Shown: piece by piece, positions 39,201 to 58,434 of the stretch
Numbering within the stretch: the first letter of the stretch is position 1
Layout: each line of letters begins with the position of its first letter
Assembly (NCBI RefSeq): GCF_000317515.1
Contig: NC_019738.1
Location: forward strand, 99,501 to 163,500
Source: Allocoleopsis franciscana PCC 7113
GTDB taxonomy: Bacteria; Cyanobacteriota; Cyanobacteriia; Cyanobacteriales; Coleofasciculaceae
DNA length: 64,000 nt
Reading direction: 5' to 3'
Notes under the pieces: generated by a model
What the model saw: the letters and a program-made list of their open reading frames with translations, nothing else
Database searches by the model: none
Told to the model about the DNA's origin: nothing
Translations under genes and position numbers: made by a program

Positions 39201-39479
39201 CACCGCAATACTGGCGTGGTCAGTGCCCGGTAGCCACAAGGTATTACGCCCTTTCATCCGGTGGTAGCGGACGAGGGTATCAATTAAAGCACTCTCAAAG
39301 GCGTGTCCCATGTGTAAGCTGCCCGTAACGTTGGGCGGCGGAATCACGATGGAGTAGGGTTCGCCTTGGTGATTAGGGTCGGCTTTGAACGTCTGGTGTT
39401 CTTCCCAGTATTTCTGCCACTTGGCTTCGGTGGTTTTGGGGTCGTATTGGGTTTGCTGAGTGGGAGTTGTTGCTGTCAT
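36204..39479 (-). CDS. valS: valyl-tRNA synthetase with CAAD membrane-anchor insert
   Basis: Charges tRNA-Val with valine and edits mischarged threonine. Class I marks are [15 protein letters not shown] (HIGH, about 49-63) and [14 protein letters not shown] (KMSKS loop with a final Thr). The CP1 editing domain contains [16 protein letters not shown]. The zinc/anticodon part and the C-terminal coiled coil ([19 protein letters not shown]) are present. At 1091 aa it is longer than usual because of an insert at about 800-905 with two membrane helices ([17 protein letters not shown] and a second one). That is the CAAD domain, known to place some cyanobacterial synthetases on thylakoid membranes. 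Confidence 0.95.
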
Positions 39480-40857: not shown

Positions 40858-41310
40858 TCAAATGAGTTGAAACTCCTTGAGGGCTGGTAAAAAATTGTGG
40901 TTTTCATGACTGGGACGGCTGAGCTTAATAAGAGCAAAACGCTGGGCAGGGCTGAGTGTTGCCCACTGCTGAACTGTGATAGATACAGCTAATTCTTGCG
41001 CTTTTTCCTGAATACTTGCAGGAATGGTTGTGCTATCCATCCAGGCCGGTTGGGGTTCTATGGGAAGTGTGGAAGCGGGTGAACCTGTATGCTCGATCAC
41101 TCGATTTTGTAAATATTCCCGATAGGTTTCTATTTCATCGGTTGTGGTGCAGAGCATCTCTACCAATGCTTCACGCTCTTCCAGTGTAAATTGGTTCCAG
41201 TGAGTTAATTTAAGTTTGACTCCGCAAGTATCTAATTTCATTCGTACTTGCATAGGAATGCAGCGTAAAGACTCTACAAAGTCGGCTTCAAATTGGAAAA
41301 AATGAGACAT
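40858..41310 (-). CDS. narM: nitrate reductase-associated protein (NarM-like)
   Basis: Small soluble protein of the cyanobacterial nitrate-reductase-associated family. It starts with the family text MSHFFQFEADFVESLRCIPM, followed by VRMKLDTCGVKLKLTHWNQF and EEREALVEMLCTTTDEIETY. Its length of 150 aa is normal. NarM is needed for active NarB in Synechococcus elongatus. I equate this family with NarM from memory, so the symbol is moderately sure. It is the last gene on the nitrate-cluster strand, two genes after narB, which supports the role. Confidence 0.75.
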   Translation of the reverse strand: MSHFFQFEADFVESLRCIPMQVRMKLDTCGVKLKLTHWNQFTLEEREALVEMLCTTTDEIETYREYLQNRVIEHTGSPASTLPIEPQPAWMDSTTIPASIQEKAQELAVSITVQQWATLSPAQRFALIKLSRPSHENHNFLPALKEFQLI

Positions 41311-41426
41311 TTATTTTAGACTTTTTAAGTTTTAAAGGTTGGATTTCTGATTGCAAAATGACTTTAAATATTTTTAGTCCATCTATTATTTTGATCATAA
41401 AAATAAATTGACTAATTTAGAAAATT

Positions 41427-41903
41427 TTAGTGCTTATCATGCGGTTCTCTAGGATTTGTAAAACGGATAATAAAATAACTAATTGATAAAGAGAGAATAG
41501 CGATCGACAACCCGATTATCTCCGTTCCCGTGACTTTTTGAAGGTCAAGAATAATAATTTTACGAGCAACAGCAATTAAAGACGTAACAATAACCAGTTC
41601 AACTTGAATAACATGCTTTCGTAGATAAGCGGTAATATTTTCTAGAATTTCGAGGGCAATCAGAACATTGAGAAACAGGCCAAACGTTTGGAATAAAGTT
41701 TTGTTAAAAAAGCCTAAAGGTGTGGTAAACAGCTCCTGAGCTAGAAAAACAACTAGGTCATAAACTGAAACTAAGATGACTACCACCATCACCACAGACA
41801 GCACTTTAGAGACAAACCCCTCTATCCGGCTTATACCACTTAGAAAATTACTGTCCCTACAAGAAGTAATGAATAGATAGAAAATTTTTTTTAACTGCCG
41901 CAT
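41427..41903 (-). CDS. PsiE-family membrane protein
   Basis: Inner-membrane protein of 158 aa with about four helices. It matches the PsiE (phosphate-starvation-inducible E) family: VVMVVVILVSVYDLVVFL, then LNVLIALEILENITAYL and VQVELVIVTSLIAVARKIIIL-type text (HVIQVELVIVTSLIAVARK here). The function of PsiE is not known. It sits between narB and narM on the same strand, with gaps of 166 and 116 bp. Neither gap has a clear promoter, so it may be carried on the narB transcript. Confidence 0.8.
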   Translation of the reverse strand: MRQLKKIFYLFITSCRDSNFLSGISRIEGFVSKVLSVVMVVVILVSVYDLVVFLAQELFTTPLGFFNKTLFQTFGLFLNVLIALEILENITAYLRKHVIQVELVIVTSLIAVARKIIILDLQKVTGTEIIGLSIAILSLSISYFIIRFTNPREPHDKH

Positions 41904-42069
41904 TTTTTTAGGGAAGACAGCTACCGAAATGATATTACCATCCAGAGGACTACAAGCTCCAATAGCAACTTCATAATTCAGGTCAACTGTTACCCTAAAA
42001 CTTCGGGCGATTGCCCAAGCCGAAATTCATAGGGGGACAACGCCAGAAGCAATCGCTTTTCTTTTCGTC

Positions 42070-44316
42070 TCACACAGAGAGGGACGGTGAAAACCAAGCC
42101 CTTAAACTGGACTGAAATGACTGACTACTTATAGGGGTTTCAGCCGATACAGGCAACAGTTGTACTGCACAGGCTTTCAATTCCGGTTGTAGGGAATCGG
42201 GGCAAGATTCTGGGTGAGTGAGGGCATTGGCTTCTGCACCATCCGCCCACAATGCGCCCCAGTGCATAGGGACGAAAACGGTACCTGGTGCGATCGCTTT
42301 TGTGACTTGGGCTTGGAAACGACAAATACCACGACGCGATCGCACTTCCACCCACGTTTCATCCTGAATCCCCAACTTCTCGGCATCACGGGGATGAATC
42401 TCGATAAAGGGATTAGGATGCATTTGCACAATTTTGGGAATTCGTCCCGTCCGAGTTTGGGTGTGCCAGTGACCATAAAGACGCCCAGTTGTCAAGATAA
42501 AGGGGTAATTTGGATCAGGCCGTTCGGCTAACCCGCGTGAGTGATAAGCCCCAAACCGGGCACGTCCATCGGGTGTAGGAAAGCGCAAATCGGTATACAG
42601 ACGTTTTGGGTTTGAAGGTTGAATCTTAACTTTATTACTATTCAAACCTTGAACCAGCAACTCATCTGGGCAAGGCCATTGCAGCGGCCCTTCGGCTTGC
42701 AAGCGTTGGTAACTCATACCCGTCTGATCACACACGCGCCCGCGAGTCACTTGGATAAACTCTGCGCGAACTTCCGCAGAGTCTTGGAACGCAAACTGGT
42801 CAACAAAACCTAAGCGACGCCCCACTTCCGCAAAGATTTCCCAGTCCGCTTTAGCTTCTCCGGGAGCATGGCGAAACTTAGGGCAAAGTGTCACCATGCG
42901 TTCTGAGTTGGTCATGGTGCCTGTTTTTTCACTCCACTGCGCCGCAGGCAGTAGGACGTGAGCATAGGCAGCCGTTTCTGTGGGATAGTAAGCATCTTGA
43001 TAAACCGTGAATGGCGATCGCAACAACGCCGCCTTCGTCCGTTCAACATCTGGCATACTCACCGCCGGATTGGTCGCCGCCACCCACAACAAACCCACCT
43101 CTCCGGTTTCCAATCCAGTCATCATCTCCCAAGCGGTGCGACCGCGATCCGCTGCAATGCTCCCAGCGGGTAGACCCCAAAACTGCTCCAATTCCTGGCG
43201 ATGCTGGGGATTCTTGACCAAGCGATATCCGGGTAAAATGTGACAAAGACCCCCGGCTTCCCGTCCTCCCATGGCATTCGGCTGACCGGTCAGGGAAAAT
43301 GGGCCTGCACCGGGTTTGCCGATGTTGCCGGTCATCAGATGCAAATTAATAATTGTCCGTACCTTCGCCGTCCCCTCCGAAGACTGATTCACACCCATCG
43401 ACCATAAGGACAGGACTCGTTCAGACTGACCCCAGTATTTGGCTGCCGTCTCTAGTTCATCCAACCGAATGCCACACTTTTTGGCAACCAATTCCGGTGG
43501 ATAGTGACGAATCACCTCCGCATATTCGGAAAAACCACTGGTGCATTCATCAATAAACACAGAATTATAGTGACCCCAACGCATCAGCAGATGAGCGATA
43601 CCGTTGAGTAAATCAATATCTGTACCCGGTCGAATCGCCAAATGCAAGTCAGCCGCTTCCGCCGTGGGTGTCTTGCGGGGGTCAACCACAATCATTTTGA
43701 CTTTTTTGTTTTGTTTGTGGTATTTCCGCAGACGGTTGAAGATAATTGGGTGGCATTCCGCCGTATTCGTGCCGATGAGAAAGGCGCAATCTGTCAGTTC
43801 TAAGTCGTCGTAGCAACAAGGAGGGCCATCCGATCCAAAACTTTGGATGTAACCCGATACGGCTGAGGACATACACAGACGGGAGTTAGCGTCAAAATTA
43901 TTGGTACCCAAACAGCCTTTCATGAGTTTTTGGGCGATGTAGTAGTCCTCAGTTTGAAACTGACCCGAACCATACATACAGATCCCGTCTGCCCCTTGGG
44001 TGACTTGAACGGTGCGAATCCGATTGGCGATCGCATCTAATGCTTCATCCCAGCTAACCCGGCGGAAGGGTTGATCCAGAGAGTGACGCATCATGGGATA
44101 CTTCAGTCGGTCTTTGTCCAAAGATTCGCTAATGGTTGCCCCTTTGACACACACCATGCCCTGACTAGAGGGATGGGAGCGATCGCCCTTTACCTTCCAA
44201 ATCGGGGTTCCTTCTGCATCTCGATTCGTCGCTTTACCAGCTTGCGCGGGTGGTGCGACCTCTAGTCCGCAGCCAACACCACAGTAAGGACAGAGTGTTT
44301 TTGTTGCATCAGTCAT
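42070..44316 (-). CDS. narB: ferredoxin-dependent assimilatory nitrate reductase
   Basis: Cytoplasmic molybdenum bis-MGD enzyme that reduces nitrate to nitrite with electrons from ferredoxin. The N-terminal [4Fe-4S] site is CPYCGVGC (Cys 9, 12, 16) plus GMVCVKG (about 57). Further marks are [11 protein letters not shown], the Mo-ligand region [10 protein letters not shown] (Cys about 147), [15 protein letters not shown] and the C-terminal MGD-binding [17 protein letters not shown]. No FAD or extra Fe-S domain is present, as expected for cyanobacteria. 46 bp separate it from the upstream nirA, so both are read from the NtcA promoter at 46244-46286. Confidence 0.95.
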
Positions 44317-44362
44317 AGCGATCGCACCTTCCGAAAATCTTGAATCCTAAGTAAGAGAAGAA

Positions 44363-45931
44363 TCATACTGAAACCACAGCCGCTTGTCGGGGTCGAGCAC
44401 CGAAGTGTTCGATCAGGAGATCCCGCAAGACAGGTTTTAAGTCTTCACAAGGAATCTTTGGCATGACACAACTCCCCAAATGAGCATCCTTGCCCACTTT
44501 GCCACCCATGTAGAGGTCTACGGCTTCCACCATCTGTCCATCTTTGCGGGCTTTCGTACCCATTAGTCCGATATCCGCCACTTGGGGTTGACCGCAAGAA
44601 TTCGGGCAGCCTGTCCAATGGATTCTTACGGGGTGAGGCGTTTCAAGTTCAGCCTCCAGTTCCTGAATCATGGCTAGAGCACGATTTTTCGTTTCAATAA
44701 TCGCAAAACCACAGAATTCAGCGCCGGTACAAGAGACTAACGCCCGTTGTAAGGGTTTGGGATCGATGGGAAAACGCTGTTGAACCAGTGGCTCCTTTAA
44801 GAAGGCTTCCAGGCGAGAATCAGGGATATTAGGAATAATCAGATTTTGCTCAACGGTGAGGCGAATCTCGCCATTGCCGTAAACTTCTGCCAGCCTTGAG
44901 ACCTCAAACATGTCCGAAGCATACAGCCGACCAATGGGAACGTGCAAGCCAACATAGTTTAAGCCCGGTTGTTTTTGGCTATAGATACCGAGGTGGTCAC
45001 GTTTTTCCCAGATAATTTCATCTTTGGCTGCTGCTTTTTGCAAAGGGTAGCCCAATTGCGTTTCGACTTCCGTGCGAAACTTCTCCATTCCCCACTCTTC
45101 AATAAGATACATCAAACGAGTCTTCTGGCGATTGCCACGTTCACCGTGGTCGCGAAAAACTATCAAAATGGCTAACGATAAGGGCACCACATCGTCAGGT
45201 TCCACCCAAGCATCCAGGGGAATAGCGGCTGCACAGCGTTTGGCGGAGAAAAAGCCACCCACGATCACGTTAAACCCTAACTTGCCATCTTTATAGGCCG
45301 GAATGAAGGCAATATCATTAATTTCGGCATGAACTGAATTGTCTCGACAACCGGCAACGGCAATATTGAACTTCCGAGGAAGGTTGCTTAAGTCAAAATT
45401 CCCCTCCCCTTTGTTGGTGATGGCATCTTGGAGTTGGCAAACGATGTCTCTGGTATCAATCAACTCATCAGCATCAATGCCCGCCACGGGTGAACCGGTG
45501 AGATTCCGCACATTGTCCATACCTGATTGAACACTGGTCAAGTCCGCTTTCCGCAATCGCTCAATGATTGCGGCAATATCCTCAAGATGAATGCCGCGTA
45601 GCTGGATATTTTGCCGCGTGGTGATATCCGCATTGCCTTCCTGTTGAAAGCCTGCCGCCTCTGTGTATCGCTGCACAATTTCCGCGAGTACTCGTAGCTG
45701 AGAACTGGTCAAAATGCCATTGGGTATCCGCAGCCGCAGCATAAACTTGCCAGGAGTCACTGGGCGATAGAAAAAGCCTAACCACTTTAGTCCATGGTCG
45801 CGTTCAAATTCATCCATTGCCTCCCAGCCCAATTGGGATAACTGTTCCAGTTCTTGCTTGAGTAATAAAGGATGTTTTTGAGCTTTGGCTTTTTCGATGG
45901 GATTAATTTTTTTCTTATCTGCTGTTGTCAT
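44363..45931 (-). CDS. nirA: ferredoxin-nitrite reductase, copy 2
   Basis: Siroheme and [4Fe-4S] enzyme reducing nitrite to ammonium with six electrons from ferredoxin. Two ferrodoxin-like half-domains are visible: LKWLGFFYRPVTPGKFMLRL, DITTRQNIQLRGI, and the cluster ligands CTGAEFC (about 398) and CPNSC (about 443) in HWTGCPNSCGQPQVADIG. Its length of 522 aa is normal. It is a clear paralogue of the nirA at 54364-55917. This copy is paired with narB and has its own NtcA promoter about 310 bp upstream. It lacks the extended N-terminus of the other copy. Confidence 0.94.
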   Translation of the reverse strand: MTTADKKKINPIEKAKAQKHPLLLKQELEQLSQLGWEAMDEFERDHGLKWLGFFYRPVTPGKFMLRLRIPNGILTSSQLRVLAEIVQRYTEAAGFQQEGNADITTRQNIQLRGIHLEDIAAIIERLRKADLTSVQSGMDNVRNLTGSPVAGIDADELIDTRDIVCQLQDAITNKGEGNFDLSNLPRKFNIAVAGCRDNSVHAEINDIAFIPAYKDGKLGFNVIVGGFFSAKRCAAAIPLDAWVEPDDVVPLSLAILIVFRDHGERGNRQKTRLMYLIEEWGMEKFRTEVETQLGYPLQKAAAKDEIIWEKRDHLGIYSQKQPGLNYVGLHVPIGRLYASDMFEVSRLAEVYGNGEIRLTVEQNLIIPNIPDSRLEAFLKEPLVQQRFPIDPKPLQRALVSCTGAEFCGFAIIETKNRALAMIQELEAELETPHPVRIHWTGCPNSCGQPQVADIGLMGTKARKDGQMVEAVDLYMGGKVGKDAHLGSCVMPKIPCEDLKPVLRDLLIEHFGARPRQAAVVSV

Positions 45932-46571
45932 CGGTTACACCTATTTTTAATTCTTGTATTTGCAGGGATTGCTGTTGAACCATCAAATTCTCATTAACCA
46001 CCTCAGCAATCCTGATTTACTGTTAGGTTAAGCAGCCCAAGCCATTAATTTCGTAAATCTTGCTACAACTATTCTTGAAAGTTCAATCTAACCAAGGCTT
46101 ATTTCTATAAATCTGACTTTAGGAATAAATGAAATTTAGAATAAGCTTATATTACTACGTAAATTGTAAGATGTTTTTTTTTCTTGGCATTACTACTCAA
46201 CCGGATAAAAATTTATTATCCCTCTAATAAATTCTTCAAATTTAAATTACAAGGACTTAAGCTTACAGATTGGTATATATAGTTACCAATCAGAAGTCAC
46301 GATGAAGGTTCTGCATAGCCTTAATGCTTATTTAACATTTCTCTGGATGATGCAGAAATTCTACTTTATAGGATGAGCTACGCCCTGCGTATTCCTAGAA
46401 TTTGTATATCAACTTAGCGACGTAAGTCCAGATGTTAACTATCTCTATACAAATAGGAGCAAATAAAAATAGGAGCAAATAAAAAAGAATAAATAGTCCT
46501 TAACTAGGAGAAGGTATTGGGCGTTCAATCTTCTACACCCAATACCTCATGCTGAACTTTTCAGTTTTAGT
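45932..46571. other. intergenic region nrtP - nirA(2)
   Basis: 640 bp holding the NtcA promoter at 46244-46286 and a leader of about 305 nt for the nirA(2)-narB transcript. AT-rich text dominates (46080-46260). No ORF or T-run terminator for nrtP was recognised. Confidence 0.5.
46244..46286 (-). promoter_or_regulatory. NtcA-activated promoter of nirA(2)-narB
   Basis: GTA (46273-46275), 8 bp, TAC (46284-46286) form the NtcA palindrome. On the minus strand 23 bp separate it from TAATTT (46249-46244), a TAN3T -10 box. This is the standard layout of nitrogen-activated cyanobacterial promoters, and it precedes nitrate-assimilation genes. The predicted start is near 46237. Confidence 0.8.
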
Positions 46572-48086
46572 TTAGTCTCTGTCCTCCGCGAGGATGGGCG
46601 TTTTTGTAAATCCCATCTCTGGCGCTTCATCCTCATGGTGTTCAGCAAAAGAGCCTTTGGGTTCTTTGAGGAAGAAAGCGCACAGGAAAGCGACAACCAT
46701 GGCTGCCAATCCCAACGTCTGGAAAAAAATTCGGTTGCCAGTCGCACCTTCCAAGAAGCTGTAGAGAGTCAGGTAAATCACCGCGCCGACGTTACCATAG
46801 GCACCAACATTACCCGCAATCTGACCGGTCACTCGCCGCTTAATTAAAGGCACCATCGCAAAGGTGGAACCTTCACCCGCTTGGACAAAGAAGGAAGCCA
46901 GCATCGTTAGCAAAATAGCAAAGGGAAGCCACCCACCTCCACTCACGCTACTCAACAGCAGATAGCCCAGCCCCATACCACCGGTTAGTACTGTCATTGT
47001 CCACTTGCGGCTGCCGAGTTTGTCAGAAATCAAGCCACCTCCCGGACGGGCTGCCAGATTCATAAAAGCATAACTAGCGGCAATCATCCCGGCAACGACT
47101 TTATTTAAGCTGAAGGTGGTTTCAAAAAACCCTGGCAGCATGGAAACCACAGCCAGTTCAGAACCAAAGTTAACAAAGTAGGTCAGTTCTAAAATTGCGA
47201 CTTGGGAAAATGAATAGCGGTCTTCAGCCGGATAGCGCTTTTTACCGGTCATCAACTCTTTGTTGACATCCCAGGACTTATAGGCTTGGAACAGATACAA
47301 ACCAACGAGAAATAACAGAACAATGGTTAGCTGACTAGCCGTGAGAAACTTAACCTTACCTAAGCGCCAAGCGAGGACGCCTAAGGCACCGATCAGGGGA
47401 ATGTTCATCGCCAGCATGGCCCAGAAGCTTTTTTTCGTGGTCACTTCTATGCCGCCATGACGGTTGGGTCGCTGATAGACTTTGCCGGGAGGCGTGTCTT
47501 GAACGTTAAAATAATAGATCACACCGTAGACGCCCGCAATGATACCCGTCAGTGCGATCGCAAATCGCCAGTTAATTTGACCCCCTGCTAGAAAGGCCAT
47601 GGCTGTAGCAACGGAGGGGAGAATGAAAGCAGCCCCAGCAGAACCAAAGTTGCCCCAGCCCCCATAAATTCCTTCTGCCACCCCTATTTCTTTGGGCGGG
47701 AACCATTCTGCTACCATGCGGATGCCAATCACAAACCCTGCACCCACGATACTGAGGAGCAAGCGGCTAATCACCAATTGGTCAAAGTTTTGAGCAAACG
47801 CAAATAGCAAACAGGGAATCGCTGCATACATTAATAGCAACGAGTAGGTGAGGCGAGGACCGAAGCGGTCTAACAACATGCCGATAATAATTCGTGCAGG
47901 CACTGTCAGAGCCACATTACAGATAGCGATGGTTCGCATTTGGGGTTCCGTGAGACCTAAATCGGCTTTCACCGCTGTCGCAAACGGAGCAAAGTTGAAC
48001 CAAACTACAAATGATAGAAAAAAAGCAAACCAGGTCAGATGCAAGATTCGGTATCGACCGCGAAATGACCATAATTGTCCGAGCAT
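46572..48086 (-). CDS. nrtP: NrtP/NarK-type nitrate/nitrite permease (MFS)
   Basis: Major-facilitator nitrate/nitrite porter (NNP family) of the inner membrane, with about 12 helices. Family marks are RIIIGMLLDRFGPRLTYS (MFS motif in loop 2-3), GWGNFGSAGAAFILPSVA (first nitrate signature, about 141-158) and AGNVGAYGNVGAVIYL (second signature, about 430-445). A cytoplasmic loop of about 80 residues sits between the halves. Among cyanobacteria NrtP is typical of marine or brackish strains, while many freshwater ones use the NrtABCD system; here both are neighbours. Two tandem NtcA promoters precede it. Confidence 0.93.
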   Translation of the reverse strand: MLGQLWSFRGRYRILHLTWFAFFLSFVVWFNFAPFATAVKADLGLTEPQMRTIAICNVALTVPARIIIGMLLDRFGPRLTYSLLLMYAAIPCLLFAFAQNFDQLVISRLLLSIVGAGFVIGIRMVAEWFPPKEIGVAEGIYGGWGNFGSAGAAFILPSVATAMAFLAGGQINWRFAIALTGIIAGVYGVIYYFNVQDTPPGKVYQRPNRHGGIEVTTKKSFWAMLAMNIPLIGALGVLAWRLGKVKFLTASQLTIVLLFLVGLYLFQAYKSWDVNKELMTGKKRYPAEDRYSFSQVAILELTYFVNFGSELAVVSMLPGFFETTFSLNKVVAGMIAASYAFMNLAARPGGGLISDKLGSRKWTMTVLTGGMGLGYLLLSSVSGGGWLPFAILLTMLASFFVQAGEGSTFAMVPLIKRRVTGQIAGNVGAYGNVGAVIYLTLYSFLEGATGNRIFFQTLGLAAMVVAFLCAFFLKEPKGSFAEHHEDEAPEMGFTKTPILAEDRD

Positions 48087-48220
48087 GAAATAGTCTCCTA
48101 GTCGTGAATTTGTAACAGTTGAATAATGAGATGTATTAGCAATTTTAGGATTGCTAATGATGGGTTAAACCCATCAAATCTGACAATTGATTTAGGATTG
48201 TTAGAGAATACTTTTTTGTT

Positions 48221-48262
48221 AGGCTAGTCTGCTTTATAGGGTGATTTCGTATCTTCTACTAC
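48221..48262 (-). promoter_or_regulatory. NtcA promoter P1 of nrtP
   Basis: GTA (48249-48251), N8, TAC (48260-48262), then on the minus strand exactly 22 bp to TAGCCT (48226-48221). The core TTCGTATCTT...CTACAAA is shared with the second site upstream. The leader is about 130 nt. Confidence 0.8.
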
Positions 48263-48471
48263 AAAGAAACCGCCTTGGTTTTCAGATTCTATCTTTAGAC
48301 AGACTTAGCCTATTCCTAGAAGTTGATAGTGAACTTGCTCATTGACAGAGATTTGTAGAATCAAAATTGACATCTTACTAACTAATGGATGTGCATTCAA
48401 ATTCTTACGTACTTACTTCCTAGTAATTAGTGATTTGGCAAGAGAACATTGCTCAATTCGTCTTCTTAGTA

Positions 48472-48513
48472 ACCCTATGAGGATTAAAGGTTTAAATTCG
48501 TATCTTTAGCTAC
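48472..48513 (-). promoter_or_regulatory. NtcA promoter P2 of nrtP
   Basis: GTA (48500-48502), N8, TAC (48511-48513), then 22 bp to TAGGGT (48477-48472) on the minus strand. It lies 251 bp upstream of P1 in the same orientation. Leader to nrtP is about 380 nt. Confidence 0.75.
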
Positions 48514-48792
48514 AAAATAGCTATTGATTTCGCTTAATTGCATTGAAGTCATGCATTTTATACATGAAATCCGCCGTGGAAAGAAATAAAGGGGAGTAGC
48601 GAGCATAAAACAAGATAGACCAATCAAGGTTTGCTACTTTTTTCATCAGGAATACTTATAAACAAGACAATTAAAGGTTAGTGCAAGAAAACTTAGACTA
48701 TTTCAGCACAGTATCAGGGGACGAAGCTTTCCGACCCCTGATCTAAAGATGAATCTTCTGATATCTAGCTGAACCTAAAACTAAATATGGAA

Positions 48793-49650
48793 CTAATCCA
48801 CCTCTGTATGGGCAAAGCGGCGGTAGAGGAAGTCCAAAGCGTAGTTCCGTAGTTCGTAGTATTGAGGATTTTCGATCAGGCGAGCGCGATTTCTAGGACG
48901 TTGGAAGGGAATGTCAAGTACCTCACCAATATGAGCGGCTGGCCCATTGGTCATCATTACAACGCGGTCAGCAAGAAAGAGGGCCTCATCAATATCATGG
49001 GTAATCATCAGGACAGTCACTCTATACTCTGTCCAGATTTTCAACAGTTCTTCTTGTAACTCTTCTTTCGTAATCGCATCTAAAGCTCCGAAGGGTTCGT
49101 CCAAAATCAAGATTTCGGGACGAATTGCTAGGGCGCGTGCGATCGCCACCCGTTGCTTCATCCCTCCCGATAGCTGCGAGGGTTTTTTGTCCGCCGATTC
49201 TGTCAGCCCCACCATCTCCAGCAATTCAGACACCATCTCTTTTTTCTTTGAGTGAGGTCTGTCTGTATAAACTGCATCTACCGCCAAGTAAATATTTTCA
49301 AAGGCACTTAACCAAGGCAGCAAAGCATAGTTCTGAAACACCATCATCCGATCAGGCCCCGGTTCGGTGATGCGCTGACCTTTGAGCAGTACGTTCCCGT
49401 AAGTCGGACGCGAGAAACCTGCCACCATGTTCAAAAGTGTGGACTTACCGCAGCCAGAGTGACCAATCAGACAAATAAACTCACCTTCATGAACGGTGAG
49501 GTTGACGCCACTGAGAACCGTGTGGTTGCCTTCTGGTGTGGGATAAACCTTAGCAACATCCTCAATCACCAGTAAGGGGTCTCCCTTCGGTTTTTGATTT
49601 TGAGTATGGGAAATTTGATGAACAAGAGCGTCGGTGTTGAATCCAGTCAT
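48793..49650 (-). CDS. nrtD: nitrate ABC transporter ATPase NrtD
   Basis: Stand-alone ATP-binding subunit of the nitrate/nitrite/bicarbonate-type ABC importer. It has Walker A GHSGCGKST (about 62-70), signature LSGGMKQRVAIARAL (about 164), Walker B ILILDEPFGALD (about 184) and the H-loop ITHD. It works with NrtC, the other ATPase, on the NrtB dimer. A 146-bp gap follows nrtC. It is the last gene of the nirA(1)-nrtABCD operon. Confidence 0.95.
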   Translation of the reverse strand: MTGFNTDALVHQISHTQNQKPKGDPLLVIEDVAKVYPTPEGNHTVLSGVNLTVHEGEFICLIGHSGCGKSTLLNMVAGFSRPTYGNVLLKGQRITEPGPDRMMVFQNYALLPWLSAFENIYLAVDAVYTDRPHSKKKEMVSELLEMVGLTESADKKPSQLSGGMKQRVAIARALAIRPEILILDEPFGALDAITKEELQEELLKIWTEYRVTVLMITHDIDEALFLADRVVMMTNGPAAHIGEVLDIPFQRPRNRARLIENPQYYELRNYALDFLYRRFAHTEVD

Positions 49651-49796
49651 GATGGTAATAGGAGGAGGGAGATAAAGTTTTTAATGGCGGAATGGGGAGC
49701 GGGGGAGCTGGGCGGGAGTTCATACGAGGACAGAAGAAACTTTTGCCATGTTGCACTAGGAGAACGTTCTAGCAATTTTCTATCCCATCCCTAACC

Positions 49797-51803
49797 TTAG
49801 GCCACTGGAGTCACGAAAGAGTCGATGTCAACTTCTTCGACACGAATTGGGCGTTTGATTTCCAGGCTATTGAGGTACTCCAGTGGGTCATCGGGATCAA
49901 AGACTGTACCGTCAAACATGCGGATTGGGCCGCGGTCATGCCCAATATCTGAAAAGCCCAAATCTCGTGCTGCTGCACCAAACAAGTCGATGCGCCGCAC
50001 TCGGTCTACAATGTTGACCCAGTTTTTGGGGAAAGGGATAATCCCCCAGCGAGCGAGTTGAGTGAGTAACCATAACCCCTCAATTTGGTCGGGATAGTTG
50101 GTTTTATCTACATAAAACTGGTTGAAGCGGGGGAGTTGTTGAGGAAGTTCTCCAGTACCGCGATTGTAGGGGTCAATAAAGCCAGGGCGAGTATATTCTG
50201 GGGCAGAACCCACATACTGCTCTTGTGTCAGTAAGCCCAAAATCTCTTCCCGGTTACGTGGGTCATCACAGTATTCGCAGGCTTCCAAAAGCGCCTTCAC
50301 CAGGGCGATATGAGTTTGGGGGTACTTGTTCACCCACTCTTCGCGCACACCCAGTACTTTTTCCGGATGTCCCGGCCAGAGTTCCATATCCGTGGCAATG
50401 ACAAAGCCGAGTTCTTCGTAGACAGCGCGAGAGTTCCACGGTTCACCTACACAATATCCATCGATATTTCCGGCTTTTAAATTGGACACCATTTGAGCCG
50501 GGGGAATCACCGTCAATGAAACATCTTGATCTGGGTCAATTCCGCCTGAAGCTAACCAGTAACGCAGCATCAGGTTGTGCATGGAGGAGGGATAAACCAT
50601 GCCCAAGGTATGAACTTTATCCGGAGTGGCTTGAATTGCCGCTTTGAAATCAGCCAGAGTGCGAACACCCTGATCGTACAGGCGCTTACTCAGGGTAATT
50701 GCATTGCCATTACGGGACAACGTTAAGGCTGTGACGACAGGGACTGGAGTTTTATTTCCTGCCCCAACCGTCAGGGTGAGGGGCATCCCAGCTACCATTT
50801 GAGCGGCGTCTAGGCGTCCGGAAACAATACCTTTCGCGATCGCTTTCCAACTGGGTTCGCGGTTGAGGGTCACTTCTTCTAACCCGTATTTGGCGAAAAA
50901 TCCTTTCTCTTTGGCAACCACTAAGGGGGCACAATCGGTGAGGGGAATAAAGCCTATTTCCAGATTGACTTTTTCTAAGCCATTGCGGGCGATCACTTGC
51001 GGCTGCTTTGATTGGCGCTGCTTGGCTTTCTTCTGTTGATTGAGGAAGTAAATCATCTCATTCCGCAAGCGGTAGTAACTGGGATGATTCACCACTTCCA
51101 GACGATGGCGGGGGCGGGGAATTTCTACTTCGATAATCTGTCCAATATGAGATTCTGGCCCGTTGGTGAGCATGACGATGCGATCGGATAGCAAGAGTGC
51201 TTCGTCCACGTCGTGAGTCACCATCACGCAGGTAACATGGCTCTCTTCGCAGATTTTCATCAATTGCTCTTGCAAACCGCCTCGTGTCAGGGCATCCAGC
51301 GCCCCAAACGGTTCATCGAGTAGCAATAATTTGGGACGAATCGCTAAAGCGCGTGCGATCGCCACCCGTTGTTTCATCCCCCCCGAAAGCTCACTGGGTC
51401 GCTTTTTCGCCGCCTGTCTCAAACCCACCAGTTCAATATGGTGTTCGACAATGCCTTTACGCTCACCCTTGGGTCGATTCGCCATCACTTCGTCCACTGC
51501 CAGGGCGATGTTTTCCCGGACGGTTAGCCAGGGTAAGAGGGAGTAGTTTTGGAATACCACCATGCGATCGGGACCGGGTTGAGTCACCTGCCGACCCTCT
51601 AGAATGATGCCTCCATGAGTGGGTTGATCCAACCCAGCAATAATATTCAAAAGCGTGGATTTGCCACAACCAGAGTGTCCAATTAAGGTAACGAACTCAC
51701 CCTGTCGAATTCTCAGTTCAATATTTTTGAGTGCCGTATAGCTTCCACCATTCGGTAGTGGAAATACGCGATCAATGTGGTCAATTTCAACAAATACAGA
51801 CAT
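49797..51803 (-). CDS. nrtC: nitrate ABC transporter NrtC (ATPase fused to NrtA-like domain)
   Basis: Two-domain cytoplasmic subunit. The N-terminal ATPase (about 1-255) has GHSGCGKSTL (about 39-48), LSGGMKQRVAIARAL and LLLLDEPFGALD. The C-terminal 380 residues, from about IGFIPLTDCAPLVVAKEKGF, are homologous to NrtA and form the regulatory domain that in S. elongatus mediates inhibition of transport by ammonium. In this copy the NrtA-like part is complete (GYCVGEPWNSRAV, LGVREEWVNKYP). The length of 668 aa is normal. Confidence 0.95.
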   Translation of the reverse strand: MSVFVEIDHIDRVFPLPNGGSYTALKNIELRIRQGEFVTLIGHSGCGKSTLLNIIAGLDQPTHGGIILEGRQVTQPGPDRMVVFQNYSLLPWLTVRENIALAVDEVMANRPKGERKGIVEHHIELVGLRQAAKKRPSELSGGMKQRVAIARALAIRPKLLLLDEPFGALDALTRGGLQEQLMKICEESHVTCVMVTHDVDEALLLSDRIVMLTNGPESHIGQIIEVEIPRPRHRLEVVNHPSYYRLRNEMIYFLNQQKKAKQRQSKQPQVIARNGLEKVNLEIGFIPLTDCAPLVVAKEKGFFAKYGLEEVTLNREPSWKAIAKGIVSGRLDAAQMVAGMPLTLTVGAGNKTPVPVVTALTLSRNGNAITLSKRLYDQGVRTLADFKAAIQATPDKVHTLGMVYPSSMHNLMLRYWLASGGIDPDQDVSLTVIPPAQMVSNLKAGNIDGYCVGEPWNSRAVYEELGFVIATDMELWPGHPEKVLGVREEWVNKYPQTHIALVKALLEACEYCDDPRNREEILGLLTQEQYVGSAPEYTRPGFIDPYNRGTGELPQQLPRFNQFYVDKTNYPDQIEGLWLLTQLARWGIIPFPKNWVNIVDRVRRIDLFGAAARDLGFSDIGHDRGPIRMFDGTVFDPDDPLEYLNSLEIKRPIRVEEVDIDSFVTPVA

Positions 51804-51814
51804 TTTGTTGCTCC

Positions 51815-51970
51815 TTAGCCATTAGTCATTTGTCGTTAGTCGAATAGCACTGATTACGTCTTTTGTCGTTGCGCTCTAGCCCTCTCTGATTGACCACAAA
51901 CACAGTCAGCTTTTTGCCATTCAGTCTTTAGCTAGTCATTCGTTATTTGCAGCAAACTCAGGACTAATGA
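51815..51970. repeat. TTAGTCATTTGTCATT-type short repeats in the nrtB-nrtC gap
   Basis: Variants of one unit occur in both directions: TTAGCCATTAGTCATTTGTC and GTTAGTC (51820-51841), TAGCTAGTCATTCGTTATTTG (51931-51951) and GGACTAATGACTAA (51961-51974). Related text follows rodA. It looks like an interspersed, partly palindromic spacer repeat inside the operon. Confidence 0.5.
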
Positions 51971-51976
51971 CTAAAA

Positions 51977-52825
51977 TTATTGATTTTTCTGTTCTTCAGG
52001 AACAACTTTAGAAGCAACAAATCCTACTAATCGGTCTAGTAAGAGACCGACGATACCGACATAAATCAGCGCCAGGATAATTTCACTGAGTCGGGAACTG
52101 TTCCAAGCATCCCAAATAAAGAAGCCAATCCCTACACCACCCACTAACATTTCAGCGGCGACAATCGCTAACCAAGATAAACCAATGCCAATTCTTAATC
52201 CCGTGAATATATAAGGAACAGAGGCAGGAAATAGCACTTTAAAGAAGTACTTTTGTCGAGACAGGCGCAATACGCGAGCCACGTTTTTGTAGTCTTGGGG
52301 GATTTGTTGGACGCCTACTGTAGTGTTAATAATGATGGGCCAAATTGCTGTAATAAAAATCACAAAAATTGCCGAAGGTTGACTATCGCGAAATGCAGCT
52401 AGGGAAATAGGTAACCAAGCTAGAGGTGGAACGGTTCGTAAAACCTGAAAAATTGGGTCTAAAGCATCGTATACAAAGGGATTGCCACCAATCAAAATAC
52501 CCAGTGCAATTCCAGTAATCGCTGCTAAAAAGAAGCCAATGGCAACTCGTGCCAAGCTCGCTAAAATCTGTAAACCCAACCCTTTATCTATCCCACCCGC
52601 ATCAAAGAAGGGGTTGATAATCAAAGGGTCCCAGGTTTCCTGAAAGACTTTGAGTGGGCTGGGTAAATTTGAGGTTGGACTGGAACACAGAAGTTGCCAG
52701 ATTACCAAAAGAATTATGAGCGCAATCAGCGGACGGATGACTTTTTGTGCTCGCTTTTGGATCAGAGCAATGATGGAATTAGACCGAACATCGCGCCGAG
52801 GACGACTTTCCAGATTTGCTGTCAT
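51977..52825 (-). CDS. nrtB: nitrate ABC transporter permease NrtB
   Basis: Inner-membrane channel subunit with about six helices (IRPLIALIILLVIWQLL at the start). The ATPase-coupling EAA loop is near VARVLRLSRQKYFFKVLFPA, followed by SVPYIFTGLRIGIGLSWLA (about 200-220), which is typical of the nitrate/taurine permease group. Its length of 282 aa is normal. It lies between nrtA (95 bp gap) and nrtC. Confidence 0.95.
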   Translation of the reverse strand: MTANLESRPRRDVRSNSIIALIQKRAQKVIRPLIALIILLVIWQLLCSSPTSNLPSPLKVFQETWDPLIINPFFDAGGIDKGLGLQILASLARVAIGFFLAAITGIALGILIGGNPFVYDALDPIFQVLRTVPPLAWLPISLAAFRDSQPSAIFVIFITAIWPIIINTTVGVQQIPQDYKNVARVLRLSRQKYFFKVLFPASVPYIFTGLRIGIGLSWLAIVAAEMLVGGVGIGFFIWDAWNSSRLSEIILALIYVGIVGLLLDRLVGFVASKVVPEEQKNQ

Positions 52826-52920
52826 TTGAGTTTAAGTTAGGCAGGTGGTGAAGTAATAAACGTTTTGGGATTGAGGCGGGAACTTTAACTCTCAATCCAC
52901 AATTTCAATCCGGGTCTAAG

Positions 52921-54243
52921 TTATACTTTGACTTTTTTAATCTTGAGGCTCTTCAAATATTCTTCTGGTTTTTCTGGGTCGAACTTAACGCCATCGAAGA
53001 ATGTTTCGACACCACGAGATGTACTGGTAGGAATCTCGGCGGCGGGTACCCCAATAGCTTTAGCTGCTTCTTTCCACAAGTCTTCTCGATTGACTTTGTC
53101 AACGACTGCCTTGATATCGGTATCCGGTGGCAGATACCCCCAACGAATATCTTCTGTCAAAAACCACATGTCATGACTCTTGTAAGGATAAGAGGCATTA
53201 TTAGACCAATACTTCAGAATATGGGGGCTGTTCTCAACAACACGACCATCGCCATAGTCAAACTTACCCTTGGCTCGGTCTATAACATCTTTGGGATCAA
53301 CTTTAATCCACTCTCGCTTGGAGATGATTTTGCACATCTCTTCTTTGTTTTCCATCTTGTCGCACCATATCTGCGCTTCCATCACCGCTTTCAGGAGAGC
53401 CATTGTTGCCTTGGGATGCTTATCAACCCAATCAGCCCGCATTCCAAAGGCTTTTTCTGGGTGATTGTTCCAAAGTTCGCCAGTTGTCAAGGCCGTATAG
53501 CCAATCCCTTGACTAATCAATTGTTTGTTCCACGGTTCGCATACGCAGAAGGCTTCCATGTTATCGACTTTCATGTTGGCTACCATCTGAGCTGGAGGCA
53601 CAACAATCGTGGAGACATCTTTTTCTGGGTCGATTCCACCCGCCGATAACCAGTAGCGTATCCAAAGGTCGTGAGTACCACCCGGAAACGTCATGGCACA
53701 TTTCAGTTCTTTGCCACTCGATTTGCCTTTCGCAAAGGCTTCTTTTAAAGGATTACTCTTGAGGTCTACCTTCAAATCCTTGTAAGTTTTGGAAACCGAA
53801 ATGCACTGACCATCGAGATTTAACCGAGCCAGAATATACATGGGAACCTTCTGGTTACCCTTGGTGACGGCTCCGGTTGAAATCAGGTAAGGCATGGGAG
53901 TCAGGATGTGTGCTCCATCAATGCCACCACCACCAGAGCCTAGTTCCAGGTTGTCACGAGTTGTCCCCCAGGATGCCTGCTTCTCAACCTTGACATCCTT
54001 CATGCCGTACTTCTCGAACAAGCCCTTTTCCTTAGCAATGATCAGGGGCGCAGCATCCGTTAAGGCAATAAATCCCAGTTTAGCGGTGGTGACTTCGGGT
54101 GCATCAGCCGGGTTGACATTAGCCGCTGTTGTAGTACTCGATGTTGAACTCGTGCTACTAGAGCTACAGCCGTGAGCTAATAGAGAAGCCGCCGTAGCAG
54201 CACCTGCGGTGAGGATAAATTTCCGTCTATTCAACGAGGTCAT
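52921..54243 (-). CDS. nrtA: nitrate-binding lipoprotein NrtA
   Basis: Periplasmic-face substrate-binding protein of the nitrate/nitrite ABC importer. I chose the ATG at 54243, giving MTSLNRRKFILTAGAATAAS; the longer frame begins at a TTG. The twin Arg and the following helix suggest Tat export, and AHGC with a Ser/Thr-rich linker suggests a lipid-anchored Cys at about 26. The mature part holds TAKLGFIALTDAAPLIIAKE and FPGGTHDLWIRYWLSAGGIDP. It is homologous to the C-terminal half of NrtC. It follows nirA(1) after 120 bp. Confidence 0.95.
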   Translation of the reverse strand: MTSLNRRKFILTAGAATAASLLAHGCSSSSTSSTSSTTTAANVNPADAPEVTTAKLGFIALTDAAPLIIAKEKGLFEKYGMKDVKVEKQASWGTTRDNLELGSGGGGIDGAHILTPMPYLISTGAVTKGNQKVPMYILARLNLDGQCISVSKTYKDLKVDLKSNPLKEAFAKGKSSGKELKCAMTFPGGTHDLWIRYWLSAGGIDPEKDVSTIVVPPAQMVANMKVDNMEAFCVCEPWNKQLISQGIGYTALTTGELWNNHPEKAFGMRADWVDKHPKATMALLKAVMEAQIWCDKMENKEEMCKIISKREWIKVDPKDVIDRAKGKFDYGDGRVVENSPHILKYWSNNASYPYKSHDMWFLTEDIRWGYLPPDTDIKAVVDKVNREDLWKEAAKAIGVPAAEIPTSTSRGVETFFDGVKFDPEKPEEYLKSLKIKKVKV

Positions 54244-54363
54244 TCTAGTTTCCAATCGGGTAATAGGAGGTAAGAAGGAAAATAAAAGGTATCAGCGATT
54301 TGCTTGACTGAAACTGGGAAAGTCAGTTGTCTTTGAGGGATTAGATCGATGAGGCAGATTTAT

Positions 54364-55917
54364 TTAGGAAGAAACCACAGCTTCTTGTCGTGGTCTGGCT
54401 CCAAACTGTTCAATCAGTAACTGATGCAGTACGGGTTTGAGGTCTTCGCAAGCAATGCCCTTTTGCACACAGGTACCCAAATGGGCATCTTTTCCAACTT
54501 TGCCGCCCATATATAAATCGACGCCTTCAACCGCTTTGCCGTCTTTACGAACCTTGGTGCCCATCAAACCAATGTCTGCCACTTGGGGTTGACCGCAGGA
54601 GTTGGGGCAACCTGTCCAGTGAACTCGCACTGGACGCGGCAAGTCGAGTTCGGCTTCTAACTGCTTAATTAGGGTCAATGCCCGATTTTTGGTTTCAATC
54701 AGAGCAAAGTTACAAAATTGAGCGCCGGTGCAAGAGACTAAGGCTCGTGTCAAGGGGTCGGGGTTAATGGAAAAGCGCTCTAGTAAAGGCTCAACCAGGA
54801 AAGCATCTAAGCGAGAATCGGGAACATTCGGGATAATCACGTTTTGCTCAACGGTGAGGCGAATTTCGCCATTGCCGTAGACCTCAGCGATGCGTGCCAG
54901 GTCGAACATATCCTGGGCATACAGGCGTCCCATGGGGATGTGTAGACCGACATAGTTGAGTTCGGGTTGCTTCTGAGGAAAGACACCAATATGATCCCGC
55001 TTGTCCCAATTGAATTCGTCTTTTTCTGCCTCTGGTTGCAGGGTTCTTCCTAGGGCATTTTCGATTTCACGGCGAAACTTGTCGATACCCCATTCATCAA
55101 TCAGCCACATCAGCCGCGCTTTTTGTCGGTTTGCCCGCAGACCATGGTCACGGTAGACCTCTAAGACGGCACGGCAGACATCCACAACATCATTGGGTGT
55201 CACCCAAGCCTGTAGGGGAATCGCGGCATCACAGCGTTTGGCAGAGAAGAAGCCGCCCACGACGACGTTAAAGCCGAGGATGCCATCTTTGTAAGCCGGG
55301 ACAAAGGCAAGGTCGTTAATTTCCGCATGAACGGAGTTGTCACGGCCTCCTGCGATCGCAATATTGAATTTCCGGGGTAGGTTGGTAAACTCTGGGTTCC
55401 CTTTCCCCTGGTTGGTGATCATGTCTTGAACCTGTTGCACCAACTCCCGCGTATCAATCAATTCAGCGGCGTCTATCCCAGCCACGGGCGAACCGGTGAT
55501 GTTACGGACGTTATCCATCCCTGATTGCACCGAGGTCAAACCGACTTGCTCAAATCGTGTAAAAATATCTGGGATATCTTCAATTCGGATACCTCGTAGC
55601 TGAATGTTTTGCCGGGTGGTGATATCAGCACTGCCGTCTTCGCCGTAGCGTTGCACAACCTCCGCTAACACTCGCATTTGAGTGCTGCTGAGAATACCGT
55701 TCGGTAAACGCATCCGCACCATAAACTTGCCGGGAGTCACGGGTCGGAAGAAGACTCCGAGCCACTTAAGCCGATGTTCGCGATCCGTTTCATTCATCGC
55801 TTCCCAGCCAAGTTGGGCAAATTGCTCTAACTCTGACTTAATCGCAAGACCATCTTTCTCTGCCTTGAATTTTTCAAATTTGTTGAGACTGCCCACTGGC
55901 TTGGTTGCGCTTGTCAT
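54364..55917 (-). CDS. nirA: ferredoxin-nitrite reductase, copy 1
   Basis: First gene of the nirA-nrtABCD operon. It makes ammonium from nitrite with ferredoxin as donor, using siroheme and a [4Fe-4S] cluster. Ligand motifs are CTGAQFC and CPNSC, with DITTRQNIQLRGIRIEDIPD in the first half. The ATG at 55917 (MTSATKPVGS) follows a GAGGAAAAACTT ribosome-binding site, so the 18 extra residues of the open frame to 55971 are not translated. It is similar to copy 2 at 44363-45931 throughout but clearly diverged. The NtcA promoter lies 90 bp upstream. Confidence 0.95.
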   Translation of the reverse strand: MTSATKPVGSLNKFEKFKAEKDGLAIKSELEQFAQLGWEAMNETDREHRLKWLGVFFRPVTPGKFMVRMRLPNGILSSTQMRVLAEVVQRYGEDGSADITTRQNIQLRGIRIEDIPDIFTRFEQVGLTSVQSGMDNVRNITGSPVAGIDAAELIDTRELVQQVQDMITNQGKGNPEFTNLPRKFNIAIAGGRDNSVHAEINDLAFVPAYKDGILGFNVVVGGFFSAKRCDAAIPLQAWVTPNDVVDVCRAVLEVYRDHGLRANRQKARLMWLIDEWGIDKFRREIENALGRTLQPEAEKDEFNWDKRDHIGVFPQKQPELNYVGLHIPMGRLYAQDMFDLARIAEVYGNGEIRLTVEQNVIIPNVPDSRLDAFLVEPLLERFSINPDPLTRALVSCTGAQFCNFALIETKNRALTLIKQLEAELDLPRPVRVHWTGCPNSCGQPQVADIGLMGTKVRKDGKAVEGVDLYMGGKVGKDAHLGTCVQKGIACEDLKPVLHQLLIEQFGARPRQEAVVSS

Positions 55918-56007
55918 AAGTTTTTCCTCTTCGGGGTAGTGTTCCAATGTTCCCAAGGTCTTCCAGAACACTAATTCGATTGCTCTTTAAATGGTTATTT
56001 GCAGATA

Positions 56008-56049
56008 AGGTTATTTGCGCTCTAAGGGAGAATTTGTATCTTCAGTTAC
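56008..56049 (-). promoter_or_regulatory. NtcA-activated promoter of nirA(1)-nrtABCD
   Basis: GTA (56036-56038), TCTTCAGT, TAC (56047-56049), then on the minus strand exactly 22 bp to TAACCT (56013-56008). It is a full match to the NtcA class II promoter layout at the place where the classical nirA operon promoter is expected, leaving a leader of about 85 nt. Confidence 0.85.
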
Positions 56050-56108
56050 AATATGTTTCACTTTATGAAGAAAAAGCATAATTACTATGCAGTTTAAACA
56101 TAAAAGGG

Positions 56109-57129: not shown

Positions 57130-58434
57130 ATGTCAGAGCTTTTAGAACAAGCGACTGCTGCGGCGAATCAGGGAAATTGGTCATTGCTCAATCAATGCTT
57201 ACAGCGTCTGCCATTAGGTACGAACGCTACAAACACGGATGCTGAATCAGCACCGCTCAATGAGACAGATTTAGAGCAAGTCTTAAATTTGGCTTTAGAG
57301 GTTCTCGATGCAGGAGATTTTCGAGAACGCTGGGAGGTGGCTAAGCTGTTTCCCAAACTGGGAGAACGAGCGATCGCACCCCTAATTGAAATTCTAGAAG
57401 ATGACGAAGCACAGATGGAGGCACGCTGGTTTGCCGGTCGCATCTTGGCAGACTTTAACCATCCTACTGTGATTCTTACCTTAGTCAATTTGCTCAAAAC
57501 GGCTGATGATGAAGACTTAGTTGCTATGGCAGCAAGTGCTCTCTCTAGTTTGGGAAACTCAGCCGTTGGCGCTTTGGGGGATCTATTACTTAATCCAGAA
57601 ACCCGGTTGTGGGCAACCACTGCACTCTCCCAAATCCGCCGGCCAGAAATTATTGAACCCTTGCTGAGTGTGGTTCACGATTCCCAAGTTGCAGTCCGTT
57701 CTACAGCGATTGAAGCCCTCAGCAGTTTCCATGACTCCAGAATTCCACCCATTCTACTTGAGGCGTTGAAAGATGATGCAGCCGTGGTGAGAAAGGAAGC
57801 TGTGACGGGTTTAGGCTTGCGATCTGATTTGTGGGCAGAATTAGATTTACTCAATCGTCTCCAACCTTTACTTTATGACTTCAATCGAGACGTTTGCCAG
57901 CAAGCAGCACTTGCATTAGGGCGTTCAAGAACCGATGAGGCGGCTGAGGCGATATTTAAGGTGATTCAGTCCCCAGCAACACCGATTCCTTTACAAATCG
58001 ACTTCATTCGGGCATTGGGCTGGATAGAAACCAGCAAAGCTTTAGATTATTTACAGCAAGCACTGCCAAATGTATCGATGGAAGCTGTGCATGAAATGAT
58101 CACCGTACTGGGACGCATAGAACAACCAGGACTTAAAATCAGAGCGGCTCAGATTCTCCTCGATTTCTTCTATTCAGAACACCCTGCCGCCCAGTCTATT
58201 CCTGTCAGACAAGCCCTGACACAAGCCTGGGGTCATTTGGGAGAACACAGTACCATGGATGCTTTGTTGGAATTATTGGCAGATCCCACAGACAGTGTCA
58301 GACTACATGCGATCGCCGCTTTGAAAAACTTCCCAACGGCACATCAGCAGTTAGAACAGTTAGCCATTGATGAGAACCTAACACCTAACTTAAAACAAGG
58401 AATTGCGATCGCGTTAGCCGAATGGCAAGTTTAG
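57130..58434 (+). CDS. HEAT-repeat protein
   Basis: Soluble all-helical scaffold of 434 aa made of about nine HEAT or PBS-lyase-like repeats. Examples are AIAPLIEILEDDEAQMEARW, LVAMAASALSSLGNSAVGAL, VRSTAIEALSSFHDSRIPPI and VRLHAIAALKNFPTAHQQL. In cyanobacteria such proteins include bilin lyases and general protein-binding scaffolds; no lyase-specific residue can be named here. The ISKra4-like element is inserted 11 bp after its stop, so the gene is intact but its native 3' region is displaced. Confidence 0.85.
   Translation: MSELLEQATAAANQGNWSLLNQCLQRLPLGTNATNTDAESAPLNETDLEQVLNLALEVLDAGDFRERWEVAKLFPKLGERAIAPLIEILEDDEAQMEARWFAGRILADFNHPTVILTLVNLLKTADDEDLVAMAASALSSLGNSAVGALGDLLLNPETRLWATTALSQIRRPEIIEPLLSVVHDSQVAVRSTAIEALSSFHDSRIPPILLEALKDDAAVVRKEAVTGLGLRSDLWAELDLLNRLQPLLYDFNRDVCQQAALALGRSRTDEAAEAIFKVIQSPATPIPLQIDFIRALGWIETSKALDYLQQALPNVSMEAVHEMITVLGRIEQPGLKIRAAQILLDFFYSEHPAAQSIPVRQALTQAWGHLGEHSTMDALLELLADPTDSVRLHAIAALKNFPTAHQQLEQLAIDENLTPNLKQGIAIALAEWQV

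Follow-up and report, generated by a model that had tools for sequence, protein, structure and literature searches.

The nitrate assimilation genes of Allocoleopsis franciscana PCC 7113 appear to form a mosaic nirA-type cluster of three NtcA-type units, in which alleles have been exchanged in place and which would provide a second nitrate route; we give this reading a probability of about 0.6. The usual account of cyanobacterial nitrate assimilation has one operon, controlled by NtcA and NtcB, with one nirA. In PCC 7113, nrtP together with a second nirA and narB most likely constitutes a second, separately controlled nitrate module.

The window, i.e. the whole stretch of DNA analysed, is 64 kb long. 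The cluster occupies positions 40858-56049 and consists of ten genes, all on the minus strand and every one intact, in the leftward order nirA1-nrtABCD, nrtP, nirA2-narB-psiE-narM. A single leftward run of about 15 kb with two uptake systems and two nirA genes, as given in the preliminary description, is therefore confirmed. The two nirA genes, nirA1 (54364-55917) and nirA2 (44363-45931), score 938 and 866 bits against the NirA family model NF007125 (cut-off 594), and their products are predicted ferredoxin-nitrite reductases. The ABC importer is complete and in order: a nitrate/nitrite-binding protein (nrtA, 52921-54243, PF13379), a permease (nrtB, 51977-52825, TIGR01183, 360 bits), an ATPase fused to an NrtA-like binding domain (nrtC, 49797-51803, TIGR01184 and PF13379) and a second ATPase (nrtD, 48793-49650, TIGR01184). 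The MFS nitrate/nitrite transporter gene nrtP (46572-48086) matches the NarK-family model TIGR00886 with 391 bits (cut-off 312). The ferredoxin-nitrate reductase gene narB (42070-44316) encodes molybdopterin oxidoreductase domains and is followed by a gene for a PsiE-family membrane protein (41427-41903, PF06146, E = 2.5e-37) and by the nitrate reductase maturation gene narM (40858-41310, TIGR02664, 196 bits against a cut-off of 110). The whole genome (7.97 Mb, 9 contigs) has only two close nirA copies and one nrtP.

Position 56049, the given end of the run, coincides with the final base of a perfect NtcA box (GTAN8TAC). Beyond it, on the plus strand and divergent from nirA1, lies a HEAT-repeat gene (57130-58434, Pfam HEAT_2, E = 1.5e-37). 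A homologue adjoins nirA in many relatives, and its product is probably a NirB-type partner of NirA. The cluster is thus better extended to 58434.

The leaders point to three predicted NtcA-type transcription units, nirA1-nrtABCD, nrtP, and nirA2-narB-psiE-narM. nirA1 has a single NtcA promoter with the box GTAACTGAAGATAC (56036-56049), 22 nt before TAACCT, and an NtcB-like element of the GCAT-N7-ATGC form, GCATAGTAATTATGC (56076-56090), which is presumably linked to NtcB. nrtP and nirA2 have two NtcA promoters each, a distal one of the NtcB-like type and a proximal one with the element AAAGRYAGRT. At nrtP the distal promoter (48500-48554) combines the NtcB-like GCATGACTTCAATGC (48540-48554) with the box GTAGCTAAAGATAC (48500-48513), and the proximal promoter (48249-48296) combines the element AAAGATAGAA (48287-48296) with the box GTAGTAGAAGATAC (48249-48262). 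At nirA2 the distal promoter (46273-46327) has the NtcB-like GCATTAAGGCTATGC (46313-46327) and the box GTAACTATATATAC (46273-46286), and the proximal promoter (46053-46120) has the element AAAGTCAGAT (46111-46120) and the box GTAGCAAGATTTAC (46053-46066), again 22 nt before TAACCT. All these promoters are on the minus strand. The window contains 12 perfect GTAN8TAC boxes where about 7 are expected by chance, and five of the 12 fall within the cluster's three leaders, about 2.5 kb in total. All five are 22-23 nt before TAN3T, which is the class II NtcA promoter arrangement (PMC3898017).

The same division of elements recurs among the survey genomes, in which an NtcA box lies within 500 bases of 31 of 33 nirA2 and 75 of 92 nirA1 genes. 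The pattern ATG...GCAT-N7-ATGCA...CAT precedes 38 of 73 nirA1 boxes (1.1 in shuffles) and one of 31 nirA2 boxes. AAAGRYAGRT, allowing one mismatch, precedes 23 of 31 proximal nirA2 boxes (0.9 in shuffles) and three of 73 nirA1 boxes; shuffled controls for both elements gave about 1-2 matches. The NtcB-like pattern was seen in the general form GCAT-N5..10-ATGY. Of the distal nirA2 boxes, 11 of 14 carry the nirA1-type element. The counts for AAAGRYAGRT are weakened as statistics because the motif was defined on the very boxes that were then counted, and these are related to one another; better support comes from its occurrence at nrtP and from its footprint in G001, the one further genome of the genus in the comparison. 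When the nrtD-nrtP leader is aligned with that of G001, both elements, the boxes and the -10 sites stand out as conserved islands between diverged spacers, and similarity is lost just 3' of the proximal promoter.

These observations bear on the alternative that AAAGRYAGRT is functionless, a trace of the shared ancestry of nirA2 leaders, with all units responding alike to NtcA. The nirA2 leaders are indeed mutually related, nirA2 and nrtP here also carry the distal NtcB-like promoter, and genome-wide enrichment is lacking. A search of the genome for a wider regulon with AAAGNNAG plus an NtcA box found none, the composite pattern giving four matches and its reversed control three. However, the element is conserved where the adjacent spacer has diverged, and it is also present before nrtP and rare at nirA1, so that we consider a functionless element unlikely, at about one chance in a handful or slightly better. 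Two of the four composite matches are the nrtP and nirA2 promoters and one is at the 3' end of a gene; with so few matches, the pattern speaks for these genes and not for a broad regulon. It is conceivable, with odds somewhat short of even, that nrtP and nirA2-narB form a small regulon controlled by NtcA and a putative new regulator binding AAAGRYAGRT ahead of the NtcA box, apart from the nitrite-responsive NtcB route, and that cyanobacteria exchange nirA2, nrtP and nrtAB alleles in place under these promoters.

In the favoured reading, nirA1-nrtABCD would respond to the nitrite-responsive activator along with NtcA. From their proximal promoters, nrtP and nirA2-narB-psiE-narM could also be switched on through NtcA and a further putative factor. 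NrtP with NirA2 and NarB would then be a second nitrate route besides the nitrite-responsive one, so that uptake and nitrite reduction could rise together under another nitrogen signal. The suggestion that the two modules are used differently finds support at the promoter level, in the distinct elements predicted before the NtcA boxes; nitrate level or salinity as the trigger is conjectural. The single predicted NtcA promoter at nirA1, as against dual promoters of two types at nrtP and nirA2, is what is new here. In one survey genome, G058 (L179), the sole nirA is nirA2-like and its proximal promoter has the NtcB-like element, as if promoter type followed the role of the gene; this is a single case, and the same was not seen at G078 and G211.

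The mosaic becomes apparent when the cluster is compared with that of G001, the two being the only genomes of the genus in the analysis. G001 has the same gene order and the same flanks (L090) but is without psiE, which is cleanly missing as an alignment gap, although the order narB-psiE-narM is found in many relatives. Protein identity is high in the flanks (dsbA 94%, HEAT 87%, valS 94%) and in narM (92%), narB (86%), nirA1 (96%), nrtC (97%) and nrtD (95%). It falls in two blocks, nrtA-nrtB (69 and 74%; block range 69-74%) and nrtP-nirA2 (60 and 74%; block range 60-75%). In steps of 250 bases, DNA identity is about 90% outside these blocks and about 60-75% within them. The changes lie near 54,360, 51,720, 48,460 and 44,380, each not far from a gene border, and the flanks are conserved.

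Phylogenies follow the same division. nrtC and nrtD of the two genus members pair with support of 99 and 100, narB with 99, and nirA1 also pairs (99-100). In G001, nrtA and nrtB are placed with family f31 (99 and 95), and the PCC 7113 copies lie elsewhere. The nrtP genes of the two species belong to opposite ones of the two deep clades in the family. Holding the two species together was rejected by the AU test for nrtA (p = 0.0006), nrtB (p = 0.011) and nrtP (p = 3e-68); for nirA2 rejection was marginal (p = 0.046), giving weak support for exchange. A phylogeny of nrtP had been proposed as a check in the preliminary description, and from it the possibility that nrtP tracks the species is discarded. 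By these sequence comparisons nirA1, nrtC, nrtD, narB and narM are established as resident genes common to both genus members. The divergence of nrtA-nrtB and nrtP-nirA2 is so strong that, in at least one of the two species, alleles from other lineages must have taken the place of these blocks without a change of gene order.

NrtC and NrtD bind the regulator PII (PMC7281370). The exchange would have affected the parts that contact substrate, NrtA, NrtB and NrtP, while the PII-binding NrtC and NrtD were kept. The sister pair suggests that the uptake parts that meet the substrate are swappable while the regulated ATPases stay.

The two-block drop in identity and the opposite nrtP clades argue against a simple joining of two operons and for a mosaic with alleles exchanged in place. 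Such a fusion, in which nirA1-nrtABCD-narB and nirA2-nrtP-narB merged and one narB was lost, is improbable, though it is a plausible route because double-operon genomes exist. Tandem double sets with two narB occur in G030, G093, G038 and G082 (loci L096, L108, L097 and L105), in G030 and G093 as nirA1-nrtABCD-narB-nirA2-narB-nrtP, and two complete operons, each with narB, lie apart in G055, G077 and G125. The present cluster resembles the tandem operons of G030 and of Trichocoleus sp. FACHB-40 (G093) in having nirA1-nrtABCD beside nirA2 with nrtP; there are two narB there and one here. However, the narB beside nirA2 in PCC 7113 is of the resident family type, grouping with G001 (99) and with G008, and it differs from the narB linked to nirA2 in G002 and in family f12. 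At the same positions, the sister species has nrtP and nirA2 genes that belong to different lineages. In addition, the order here is nrtP-nirA2-narB, seen in no genomes but the two of this genus, and nirA2-nrtP-narB is found elsewhere. Relatives also show nirA1-nrtABCD-narB, nirA1-nrtP-narB and nirA1-nrtABCD-nrtP-narB, and G008, of the same family, has nrtABCD-nirA1-nrtP-nirA2-nrtP-narB (L091). With such varied orders and a resident narB, repeated insertion or exchange fits better than one fusion. Each nirA is tied to its own module by position, as had been proposed, but in the case of nirA2 and narB the tie is a matter of position only, since narB is not the nirA2-linked type. Of the proposed merger of two nitrate operons what stands is its plausibility; pieces with different histories make it too simple.

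G008 thereby has two nrtP, of different subclades, within one run. In clusters of family f17 a cyanate lyase gene is located between nrtD and narB (L130:10522-11001, L133:10087-10566).

A little less probable than the merger is descent from old paralogues, inherited vertically and sorted by differential loss and gene conversion without transfer between lineages. The nirA2 clades are of old origin with a patchy distribution among families, and losing one copy is easy. On the other hand, one ancestor must then have had both nrtP classes and both nrtAB types, sorted at identical positions in the two sister species, and the grouping of the G001 nrtA-nrtB with family f31 stands against it. Recent duplication of nirA2 from nirA1, to which the common cluster and common reductase family might point, can be dismissed, as the two are 72% identical, fall in separate clades and are not accepted as a pair (AU p = 8.6e-5); this was the other phylogenetic check proposed at the outset, and the copies are not a recent within-genome pair.

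In the tree restricted to the order, a clade of 33 rows (99) contains nirA2. With other orders added it falls in a 17-row clade (95), 13 of whose rows group at 100, made up of extra nirA copies of families f1, f4, f12, f13, f17, f19 and f20 and of Phormidium tenue FACHB-886. A few members of the clade (G078, G211) have it as their sole nirA. A single clade for all second nirA copies had to be given up, because those of family f30 shift among nirA1 once other orders are added. Second nirA copies thus probably originated on more than one occasion, and how deep the split lies is uncertain. Most differences in nirA2 are at third codon positions, the pattern left by purifying selection. The siroheme/4Fe-4S cysteine motifs and the PRKFN motif are kept in all 33 nirA2 rows, including this one.

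Of 388 genomes in the order, 33 show two nirA matches. In three of these, a single gene is divided in two by a frame shift or by contig ends, which leaves about 30 (8%). Outside the order, only three of about 107 drawn genomes have two. nirA is thus normally single, as had been stated. nrtP is present in 248 of the 388 genomes; searching NrtB over the same genomes by E-value gave no count, since matches overlap with probable CmpB. nrtP and nrtABCD lie within one stretch of at most 20 kb in 28 of 94 sampled genomes, from nine families, the sample being enriched for two-nirA genomes. Coexistence of ABC and MFS nitrate uptake is already known, being reported for Arthrospira and Cyanothece PCC 7424, 8801 and 8802 (PMC9430850). 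The view that the two uptake types mark different cyanobacteria is therefore only loosely true: their pairing is ordinary, and a second nirA is uncommon yet recurrent. With its own predicted promoter type, such a recurrent lineage makes split control open to experimental test. The literature searched for cyanobacteria with two nirA, and for an association of PsiE with narB, yielded nothing relevant.

The cluster resembles the nirA operon of Anabaena sp. PCC 7120 (nirA-nrtABCD-narB) in the order nirA1-nrtABCD, in having narB and narM, and in the NtcA box that precedes TAN3T at the class II distance. It differs in that nrtP and the second nirA, with their own dual promoters, are placed between nrtD and narB. 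It is like the nirA-nrtP-narB clusters and dual-uptake strains (PMC9430850) in having both uptake types in one genome, whereas here they form one run with two nirA lineages.

No constant partner gene was found at stand-alone nirA2 genes; GAF and cyanate lyase genes are at a few loci. A ClC-type channel gene (PF00654) is near nirA2 or nrtP in seven of 33 nirA2 loci (L163:4683-6044, L096, L101, L103, L108, L132 and L135). ClC proteins can carry nitrate, so the gene may encode a nitrate channel or antiporter. Near the cluster in PCC 7113, the valyl-tRNA synthetase gene (36204-39479, minus strand) contains an inserted membrane-anchoring CAAD domain (PF14159), a known feature of this enzyme in cyanobacteria.
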